Of a stretch of 37,085 bases of DNA, positions 8,601-35,756 are shown piece by piece. The stretch lies in assembly GCA_016866385.1 (NCBI GenBank), contig VGMU01000022.1:1-37085 (forward strand), in the 5' to 3' direction. The position numbers and the translations under genes were made by a program. This DNA comes from Bacteroidota bacterium (GTDB lineage: Bacteria > Bacteroidota > Bacteroidia > Cytophagales > Cyclobacteriaceae). The notes under the pieces were generated by a model, which was given only the letters and a program-made list of their open reading frames with translations, had not been told where the DNA came from and did no database searches. Within the stretch, counting starts at the first letter, position 1. Each line of letters begins with the position of its first letter.

Positions 8601-8731
8601 AACCTTTGAGGTTTTTAAAACCTCGAAGGTTTAGAGGTCTAAAAGACCTCAGAGGATAAACCAAAACCTCGAAGGTTTAATTCAAATTCTAATCCTTCGA
8701 GGTCTAAAATACCGGAGAGGATAAATCAAAA
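8601..8731. repeat. REP/BIME-like palindromes (family of the 35-kb array)
   Basis: Hairpin 1 has arms 8601-8614 and 8618-8631 (AACCTTTGAGGTTT with AAACCTCGAAGGTT) and a 3-base loop. Hairpin 2 (8634-8640 with 8644-8650) is GAGGTCT/AGACCTC, also with a 3-base loop. A looser palindrome joins 8666-8675 and 8694-8703. A roughly 29-base segment at 8638-8666 recurs nearly unchanged at 8703-8731, so the region holds a duplication of about 65 bases. It fills the gap before the D-hydroxyproline dehydrogenase gene and belongs to the same family as 35073-35339. Confidence 0.8.
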
Positions 8732-33485: not shown

Positions 33486-35027
33486 TTATCCTACAAGTGG
33501 TAAGGTATGTAACGCAAATCGGATTCTTTTGGCTACTTCTTGAGGGCCCAATATTGCAAAAACTTCCATCAAGTCAGGCCCCGCTCCCCAGCCGGTGACA
33601 GCTAGCCTTACCGCTTGCATTACTTTTCCCAACTTAATTTCCAATGCTTCCGCGGTAGCTTCAAGCAAGGCTTTGGCCGAGCTGGCATCAAAGGGAATAC
33701 TATTGTCTGCCTCTAGGGCAGCCGCATAGGTCTCCAACACGGTCTTGGCCTCAAGGTTCCATTTCTTCCCAGCCACTTCCTCATCAAACTCGCTCGGTGC
33801 CTGCCAGAGCAGTTGGCTGTCTTTCCAAAAATCCCCTGGAAAGGTCACGCGTTCTCTGAGCAGGTGTACGACGGCCGTAGCTTTGCCTTTCTCAAGCTGC
33901 ACTCCTGCGGCTTGAGCATCTTGAAGAAGGTACTCCCGCTGATGCTCCACGGAAAGTTGGCGGAGGTAATGCTCGTTAAACCACTTCGCTTTGGCGATGT
34001 CAAACTTGGTTCCTGCCTTTCCGATTCGATCGATGGAAAAGGCCTCCACCAATTCCGAAAGAGAAAAAATCTCCCGTTCATCTCCCGGATTCCATCCTAG
34101 AAAGGCAAGGAAGTTGAGCAGAGCATCTGGCAGGTAGCCTGTTTCCCTAAAGCCACTTGATTTTTCCCCTGAAAAGGGATCGGTCCAGTTGAGGGGGAAG
34201 ACGGGAAATCCCAATTTGTCTCCATCTCTTTTGGAGAGCTTGCCGTTGCCGTCCGGCTTGAGAAGCAGGGGCAGGTGAGCAAACTGAGGCATGGACTCCT
34301 CCCAACCAAAAAATCGATACAAGAGTACATGCAAGGGAGCCGAGGGCAACCATTCCTCTCCGCGAATCACGTGGGTAATCCCCATGAGGTGGTCATCCAC
34401 GATATTGGCCAGGTGGTAGGTAGGCATGCCATCTGATTTCATGAGCACCTTATCGTCTAAGGTGCTGGTATGTACCACCACCCAACCGCGGATCAAATCC
34501 TGAAAGCGCACTTCTTCCTTCAAGGGGAGCTTGGCACGGATGACGTAGGGCTGTCCCGAGGCCAATCGTTCCTGCACCTCTGCTTTGGAGAGGGTCAGGG
34601 AATTTTTCATTTGGGTACGAGTGATGCTGTTGTACTGAGGCTGTACCACGCGTGCGGCAGTGAGTCGCTCGCGCATGGCTTCCAGCTCCTCCGCGGTGTC
34701 AAAGGCATAGTAGGCGTGCCCTTTTTCGATCAGGTCTAGCGCATAGGGCAAATAGCTTTCTTTGCGCTCGGATTGTCGGTAGGGACCTACGGCACCCGGC
34801 TTCCAGGGGCTTTCGTCGGGGGAAATCCCTAGCCAGGCTAGGGATTCTTGGATGTATTCCTCTGCCCCTGGGACAAAGCGGGTTTGGTCGGTATCTTCTA
34901 TGCGGAGAAGGAACTTTCCCCCCATTTTCTTGGCAAACAAGTAATTGTATAGGGCCGTACGCAAGCCACCGATATGAAGGGCTCCTGTGGGGGAGGGAGC
35001 AAAGCGTACGCGAACTTCTTGATTCAT
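33486..35027 (-). CDS. gltX: Glutamyl-tRNA synthetase
   Basis: Class-I synthetase charging tRNA-Glu (and, if a GatCAB route exists, tRNA-Gln). The 513-residue protein has RFAPSPTGALHIGG with the HIGH-type motif at 18-21, LRIEDTD near 41-47, and the KMSKS-type loop KLSKR at 263-267, followed by an alpha-helical anticodon-binding domain. Length and motifs are normal. A promoter-like box lies 25 bases upstream, directly beside the palindromic array, and a 58-residue ORF follows after one base. Confidence 0.96.
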   Translation of the reverse strand: MNQEVRVRFAPSPTGALHIGGLRTALYNYLFAKKMGGKFLLRIEDTDQTRFVPGAEEYIQESLAWLGISPDESPWKPGAVGPYRQSERKESYLPYALDLIEKGHAYYAFDTAEELEAMRERLTAARVVQPQYNSITRTQMKNSLTLSKAEVQERLASGQPYVIRAKLPLKEEVRFQDLIRGWVVVHTSTLDDKVLMKSDGMPTYHLANIVDDHLMGITHVIRGEEWLPSAPLHVLLYRFFGWEESMPQFAHLPLLLKPDGNGKLSKRDGDKLGFPVFPLNWTDPFSGEKSSGFRETGYLPDALLNFLAFLGWNPGDEREIFSLSELVEAFSIDRIGKAGTKFDIAKAKWFNEHYLRQLSVEHQREYLLQDAQAAGVQLEKGKATAVVHLLRERVTFPGDFWKDSQLLWQAPSEFDEEVAGKKWNLEAKTVLETYAAALEADNSIPFDASSAKALLEATAEALEIKLGKVMQAVRLAVTGWGAGPDLMEVFAILGPQEVAKRIRFALHTLPLVG

Positions 35028-35072: not shown

Positions 35073-35339
35073 GACCTTTGCGGTCTTTTAGACCGCGAAG
35101 GTCCAAATAAAGGGGATATAGGAGTAAACCTTCGCTGTTGAAAAAAACAGCATAGTTTGGGCCTGACCTTTGAGGTCTTACAGACCTCGAAGGTCTAACT
35201 AGGTTAATGATGGAGTAAACCTTCGCTGTTTTGGAAACAGCAAAGGTTAGGTCCACCTTTGCGGTCTTTTAGACCGCGAAGGTCTAAATGAAGGGGATAT
35301 AGGAGTAAACCTTCGAGGTCTTGGAGACCTCAAAGGTTT
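35073..35339. repeat. BIME-like tandem array of six paired palindromes
   Basis: Six hairpins with 14-15 base arms, five of them with 3-base loops, lie at 35073-35103, about 35126-35159 (degenerate right arm, longer loop), 35165-35195, 35218-35248, 35255-35283 and 35307-35339. They alternate between orientation A (ACCTTTG...CGAAGGT) and its inverse B (AACCTTCG...CAAAGGTT). A-spacer-B units repeat three times with a period near 90 bases, and a spacer with GGGGATATAGGAGTA is shared by the first and third. Inner stems differ (GCGGTCT, GCTGTT, GAGGTCT) but remain complementary. This array is what fills the roughly 360-base gene-free gap between gltX and rplS. Confidence 0.9.
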
Positions 35340-35370
35340 AAAAAAAAAGGCCCCGTATGAACGGAGCCTT
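35338..35370 (-). terminator. Terminator of the rplS operon
   Basis: On the minus strand GGCTCCGT-TCAT-ACGGGGCC (35368 down to 35349, one G-U pair) is followed by eight T. It lies about 20 bases after the rplS stop and directly abuts the palindromic array. Confidence 0.85.
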
Positions 35371-35390
35371 TAGGTAGAATTGGGCTTGCC

Positions 35391-35756
35391 TTACTGCTTG
35401 CCTCCGATTTTTTCTTTGATACGAGCCGCCTTTCCTTGACGACCTCTCAAATAGAATAGTCTAGCTCTTCTCACCTTTCCTTCTCTCACCAAATCGATTT
35501 GTTCGATGGAAGGAGAGATAATAGGGAAAATACGCTCTACTCCAATGCCGTTTGACACCTTACGTACGGTAAAGGTCTCTCCATTGGTGTTGGGATTTTT
35601 GCGTTGAATGACCGTACCCTGAAATTGCTGGATACGCTCTTTGTTACCTTCGCTGATTCGTACGTGTACGTTGATGGTATCACCAGATTTGAAAGAAGGG
35701 AATTTGGCTCTCGCCTCGCTGTATTCCGCTTCTACAATTTTCAATAGATTGCTCAT
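35391..35756 (-). CDS. rplS: 50S ribosomal protein L19
   Basis: Ribosomal protein at the 30S-50S interface. The 121-residue sequence shows [26 protein letters not shown], then [15 protein letters not shown] and the basic tail [21 protein letters not shown], all standard for L19. It ends the conserved translation cluster rpsP-rimM-trmD-rplS, after a 75-base gap following trmD, and has a strong terminator behind it. Confidence 0.97.

Follow-up and report, generated by a model that had tools for sequence, protein, structure and literature searches.

A probable BIME between rplS and gltX: an untagged REP hairpin family found mainly in Cyclobacteriaceae, with a likely cognate RAYT

The 37,085-nucleotide contig VGMU01000022.1 of a Bacteroidota bacterium (GCA_016866385.1, family Cyclobacteriaceae), the whole of which is called the window here, carries an array of alternating hairpins between the genes gltX and rplS. 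We are confident that this array is a bacterial interspersed mosaic element (BIME) of a family of repetitive extragenic palindromes (REPs) that is found mainly in Cyclobacteriaceae, and that its likely cognate REP-associated tyrosine transposase (RAYT), of the HUH type, is encoded elsewhere in the genome in a REPtron, that is, a RAYT gene bordered by repeats. We class the system as an untagged REP/BIME family that has its REPtron; as such it is a new branch within a kind of bacterial repeat already known, and no new kind of system. It extends REP/RAYT systems to an untagged Cyclobacteriaceae family with a matching transposase clade. A BIME/RAYT interpretation had already been offered by a reading of the letters alone (the sequence-only reading), and it is now supported by many extragenic copies, by paired inner stems and by a hairpin-bordered RAYT-like gene in the same genome. 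That genome, a 2.65 Mb draft of which the window is contig 22, is designated G000.

The array spans positions 35074-35337 and comprises six hairpins in three tandem units, each of two inverted hairpins, which is the organisation of a BIME or REPIN. G-foot and A-foot types alternate along it. The sequence-only reading had described six alternating palindromes in three units with fixed outer arms. The arrangement stands, with five hairpins intact and exact in their outer arms and one degraded (hairpin 2, whose right outer arm has decayed to CATAGTT); the constancy of the arms follows in part from selecting copies by an outer-arm pattern. Folded as a single strand, the array gives z scores of -10.0 and -11.4 on the two strands, with none of 200 shuffles as good, and an Rfam search of it gave no match at gathering scores. 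Two stretches of the window share 97% over 61 bases, yet their terminal hairpins differ. As a separate observation, the arms of palindromes in the array and at RAYT loci are often small palindromes themselves (ACCT-TCG-AGGT), and each hairpin could fold as two.

Copies throughout the genome were chosen on the outer arms alone, allowing paired and unpaired forms of the mismatch position and leaving inner pairing unselected. This pattern has 32 sites in G000, against 3 for a reversed-pattern control. A covariance-model search, whose first look scored 150 of 1912 candidates, returned 79 rows at E<=0.001, which we count as 43 sites, so the hairpins occur beyond the array; 13 sites lie beyond the outer-arm pattern and are mostly imperfect. 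Read as ACCTTCG...CAAAGGT, the hairpin has one C.A mismatch, which is a T.G wobble on the opposite strand. The asymmetric position had been proposed as a kept mark of orientation, and it is indeed retained in 30 of the 32 pattern sites, the remaining two being fully paired there. The 32nd site, on contig C52, is unlike the family, leaving the mismatch kept in 30 of 31 family hairpins. On the C.A strand of the 30 mismatched copies, position -1, just before the arm, is always a purine (A or G), which in 29 pairs with the base following the arm, and base -2 is A in 29. Outside all open reading frames (ORFs) of at least 130 aa lie 27 of these copies; the other three fall within one ORF that overlaps gltX, has no Pfam match and was judged spurious. 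The family thus consists of short palindromes outside genes in many dispersed copies, as REPs do. Separately, contigs C66 (L018) and C84 (L020) of G000 carry similar hairpins with similar flanks and spacing, which may reflect either paralogy of the region or a mixture of strains in the draft.

The inner stems vary while remaining paired, as had been claimed. All five inner pairs are formed in every one of the 30 C.A copies of G000 (shuffled mean 14.8), and unpaired inner stems, which would have undermined the claim, number 0/30. These copies represent 28 distinct sequences, and in four of their stem pairs both sides vary; one such pair is the A-T/G-C pair immediately flanking the arms. Among the distinct copies, double-changed cells (26 vs 6.4 in shuffles), the covariation score (0.201 vs 0.075) and paired cells (91.8% vs 85.5%) were each matched by 0/500 shuffles; the number of pairs with double change (4 vs 2.7, 47/500 as high) and of further pair types (5 vs 5.9, 482/500 as high) were not exceptional. 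Elsewhere, inner stems are fully paired in 25/32 copies from fetched stretches of genome G085 (shuffled 13.2), in 69/83 array copies of G097 and G108, with 14/83 not, and in 88/100 copies from named-genome stretches (shuffled 47.6), the last a weaker test of pairing, as these stretches were fetched with a pattern fixing three inner positions per side.

The RAYT gene whose presence the sequence-only reading had suggested looking for lies at G000:C54:7799-8362, an intact 187-aa RAYT-like HUH frame with no stop. Six hairpins flank it, three to the left and three to the right; one of the six has a damaged arm and another lacks the mismatch. Its motifs are NHFH and YIHWNP, and across eight RAYT rows H56, H58, Y119, N123 and P124 are invariant, giving the HUH motif and the catalytic tyrosine with NP. 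A search with a profile built from eight relatives hit the solved TnpArep chain 4er8 (E 5.7e-6). The first RAYT-like gene to be found, in G126 by a Y1 protein search of high-copy genomes, has five hairpins on one flank and a single one on the other. Four sister genomes have the RAYT too, each with strict hairpins to its left and right within the stretch fetched (2, 4, 4 and 7 in number), so that a REPtron is present on G000 C54 and in all four sisters.

Transposase phylogeny and hairpin type correspond. A tree was built from 35 rows. In it, the 11 RAYTs whose stretch contains strict C.A hairpins group together with support 93/92, a single clade for this hairpin class, and 0/500 label shuffles were as clustered. 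Seven clade genomes from a RAYT similarity search, together with G085, hold 12 to 50 hairpins each; the G085 RAYT is 64% identical, contains a stop and lies outside the tree sample. The next best match is in G093, a genome with no hairpins. C.A hairpins were found at 9 of the 30 RAYT-like loci examined, and 20 of the other 21, including that of the same-genus G130, hold other palindromes, some within the gene; one locus (L276) has no palindromes at the threshold used. Palindromes inside RAYT-like genes were seen at L275, L281-L285, L289, L292, L293 and L371. Several relatives show a similarity match that is interrupted near residue 70, with the frame still open. At L244 (G085:C1:2126023-2126577) the RAYT with one stop codon sits amid five strict hairpins, in the genome that holds 50 copies.

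These loci also bear on whether the hairpins might be remnants of a miniature inverted-repeat transposable element or an IS200/IS605 insertion sequence moved by an ordinary insertion-sequence transposase. We regard this as very improbable: Y1 transposase matches do occur in 121/148 family genomes, but 0/30 fetched Y1 loci hold a strict C.A hairpin (further Y1 loci were only partly checked), whereas RAYT-like loci of one clade do. The only Pfam Y1_Tnp match of G000 (C44:20907-21083) was considered as a RAYT and dropped; it is a truncated IS200-like piece cut at the contig end, with no tyrosine at the expected place as judged by eye. A home-made Y1 profile, built from 10 seeds without RAYT types, gave few matches in named stretches, a result that we do not read as absence.

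Several results weigh against assigning the array to a REP family with this RAYT as its partner. The GTRG tag of REPs stands directly 5' of the hairpin in 0/30 G000 copies, and CGTC is likewise missing from their 5' tetranucleotides (0/30). The G000 RAYT scores 67.8 bits against NCBIfam NF047646, below the cut-off of 80, and Pfam gives nothing for it at E 0.1. A RAYT-profile search of 15 of the 17 other genomes with at least five hairpins showed no RAYT as a clade member, among genomes that include such hairpin-rich cases as G097 (66) and G001 (57); because of this, hairpins in those genomes appear to spread or persist without a detected partner. A sixteenth, G138, has an 89% identical piece with hairpins beside it. 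In the tree, both RAYTs of G123 fall outside the C.A clade; the RAYTs of G108 and G143, which are not part of the tree sample, lack strict hairpins in their vicinity. We saw no transposition event, and infer both hairpin mobility and any host function. That the RAYT would use the hairpins as in Escherichia coli is suggested by the E. coli system (PMC8266576) and by the position of the gene.

Published systems, cited here and below from excerpts of the papers, place the family more closely. It resembles the E. coli REP/BIME elements (y-z1, y-z2) in its alternating inverted imperfect hairpins with two types per unit, in a mismatched constant lower stem below a freer upper stem, and in having an HUH protein gene bordered by repeats (PMC8266576). 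Unlike them, the hairpins lack a GTAG foot, and a single C.A mismatch replaces the AA-GC bulge. In E. coli TnpAREP, E100, H101 and R104 contact GTAG (PMC6006769), whereas the RAYTs here, aligned by eye, have R, K, and K or N. Atypical untagged structures have been reported for TnpAY1 subclass 2.6 of Bacteroidetes (Quentin et al. 2018, PMC6006769), and our hairpins are likewise untagged. Compared by printed motifs, NH[FY]H, FQ and YIHxNP come nearest to the second printed motif line of TnpAY1 subclass 2.1, which was found without REPs (PMC6006769). The excerpt of PMC12306157 lists three Bacteroidota species, two Flavobacterium and one Thermoflavifilum, and the terms Cyclobacter and Cytophag are absent from it. 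In the open-licence literature we found no report of the hairpin sequence family, and the literal hairpin sequence matched 8 papers, of which none concerns bacterial repeats by title.

The C.A pattern occurs in 62/148 family genomes, in which single sites per genome include chance matches, and by our own count 25/148 have five or more. A scan of named genomes gave at least 119 stretches. Titles were listed for 80 of these, and among the matches listed 39 of the 80 titled stretches hold the C.A form. By title, 36 of these are Cyclobacteriaceae, the others being a Parabeggiatoa, a Cytophagales and a Bacteroidetes metagenome-assembled genome. Family membership was checked for Algoriphagus and Mongoliibacter and was otherwise given in the title or presumed. 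The hairpins of G097 fall at the same places on the contig as those of a Mongoliibacter ruber stretch (L048), from which we take the family to be Cyclobacteriaceae. Fully paired palindromes of the same wording occur across many phyla; those of Chloroflexi, cyanobacteria, Beggiatoa relatives and others were set aside, as they lack the C.A mismatch.

Comparison of sister genomes, another course that the sequence-only reading had recommended, shows that the rplS-gltX locus is a natural series of one to four units. There is one degraded unit in G149, one unit in G152, two in G154, three in G000, three plus one hairpin in G157 and four in G151; the strict pattern misses the unit in G149, which was found on reading the locus. 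Among nine loci with gltX in the stretch, those of G148, G161, G164 and G170 have no strict hairpin, and none was seen in G161 and G170 when these were also read directly. Could the array instead be kept for a local RNA or chromosome function, such as protection of the rplS mRNA 3' end, attenuation before gltX, or gyrase or IHF binding? Its placement is as originally described, between two minus-strand genes and adjoining a terminator-like site (35346-35371) behind rplS, and it is present in some form in six genomes including G000. Nevertheless, the range from one degraded unit to four, the lack of any seen in G161 and G170, and the occurrence of copies in many other intergenic gaps make a local function unlikely. 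Under the REP interpretation, the position beside the rplS terminator would simply be a tolerated insertion site.

The same locus records how the inner stems change. Half-changed inner stems occur there in G154 and G157, and these stems therefore change stepwise. The terminator-proximal hairpin is of the CTGTT type in five sisters and of the AGGTC type in G000, where the same 29-mer (hairpin 6) recurs at five further genome places, which points to whole-hairpin replacement. Two routes of inner-stem change are thus seen, one stepwise and the other an exchange for a hairpin that is common at other places in the genome. The choice originally posed, between selection on structure and copying from a pool, is best answered with both.

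Inverted neighbours rarely share an inner stem. Within 60 bases, only 1/112 inverted neighbours have the same inner five bases (shuffled-partner mean 33.7, minimum 20), and none of the 75 with exact arms do, whereas 47/63 same-orientation neighbours within 130 bases share theirs. Fifteen loci each of G097 and G108, with no 120-mer shared with the stretches used earlier, gave 0/24 for G097 (shuffled mean 5.4; three of these pairs, on C7, lie in named stretch L048 and are not independent). Whole-hairpin identity was 0/51 in the two genomes together, with shuffled means of 1.1 and 2.6 and a minimum of 0, so that identity alone proves nothing. In a fold model, 104/150 strands of real inverted pairs folded mostly locally, with two ties, whereas homotypic controls cross-folded in 300/300 cases and locally in 0/300, as required of a perfect inverted repeat. 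Three points count against the rule: G108 gave 7/27 shared inner stems (shuffled mean 10.5, minimum 3), which is not exceptional; 44/150 real strands folded mostly across; and arrays share ancestry, so that shuffles overstate significance. Heterodimers are preferred in most families of GTAG/CGTC-tagged repeats, exclusively in some; the authors find no obvious reason for this and propose that heterodimers evade SbcCD cleavage (PMC3733652). The family described here shares this preference but has no such tag, and the preference is measured against same-orientation neighbours as well as shuffled partners. That inverted neighbours are so seldom alike puts the published preference into a sharp form open to testing.

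We tentatively suggest, at somewhat less than even odds, that the family represents an untagged class of REPs whose transposase reads an A-R foot together with a single C.A mismatch in the constant lower stem, and whose upper stem is a free identity segment that has to differ between inverted neighbours. The RAYT would recognise, on single-stranded DNA, the foot, the constant lower arm and the mismatch. E. coli TnpAREP is sensitive to the mismatch and the lower stem but leaves the sequence of the upper stem free (PMC8266576). Since the upper stem would need only to be paired, its sequence could drift or be exchanged. If the upper stems of two inverted partners were identical, the pair would anneal into a single long perfect hairpin, which would be unstable and would hide the foot-plus-mismatch substrate; this would be why the partners stay different. 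Inner stems may then diversify yet stay paired because upper stems must differ for each inverted neighbour to fold alone.

A rather less probable source of inner-stem pairing is replication template switching that copies arm onto arm (quasipalindrome correction), without selection. Such a mechanism has been reported both from E. coli and for RNA hairpins (PMC7202029, PMC8794818), and it would accommodate the half-changed stems of G154 and G157, the incompletely paired G097 and G108 copies, and copy C54:8385 of G000, which resembles a mismatch-corrected form of C54:8476. Template switching should, however, erase the C.A mismatch that nearly all family hairpins of G000 keep, and it leaves the differing inverted neighbours unexplained.

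Table 1. Hairpins of the array and associated features of the window
Feature	Position	Strand	Basis
REP hairpin 1, G-foot type, inner stem CGGTC	35074..35102	-	outer-arm pattern
REP hairpin 2, A-foot type, inner stem CTGTT	35128..35157	+	covariance-model match 35125-35160, E 1.6e-5
REP hairpin 3, G-foot type, inner stem AGGTC	35166..35194	-	outer-arm pattern
REP hairpin 4, A-foot type, inner stem CTGTT	35219..35247	+	outer-arm pattern
REP hairpin 5, G-foot type, inner stem CGGTC	35255..35283	-	outer-arm pattern
REP hairpin 6, A-foot type, inner stem AGGTC	35309..35337	+	outer-arm pattern
Additional copy of array hairpin	8602..8630	-	outer-arm pattern
Terminator-like site behind rplS, adjoining array	35346..35371	-	terminator scan: 2 sites found, 1.2 expected
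rplS (ribosomal protein L19), upstream neighbour of array	35391..35756	-	Pfam
gltX (glutamyl-tRNA synthetase; class I E/Q type), downstream neighbour of array	33486..35027	-	Pfam

Apart from the features of Table 1, the window contains a match to the Rfam DUF805 RNA motif (RF03081) at 357-423 on the plus strand, scoring 54.5 bits against a gathering score of 51.1.
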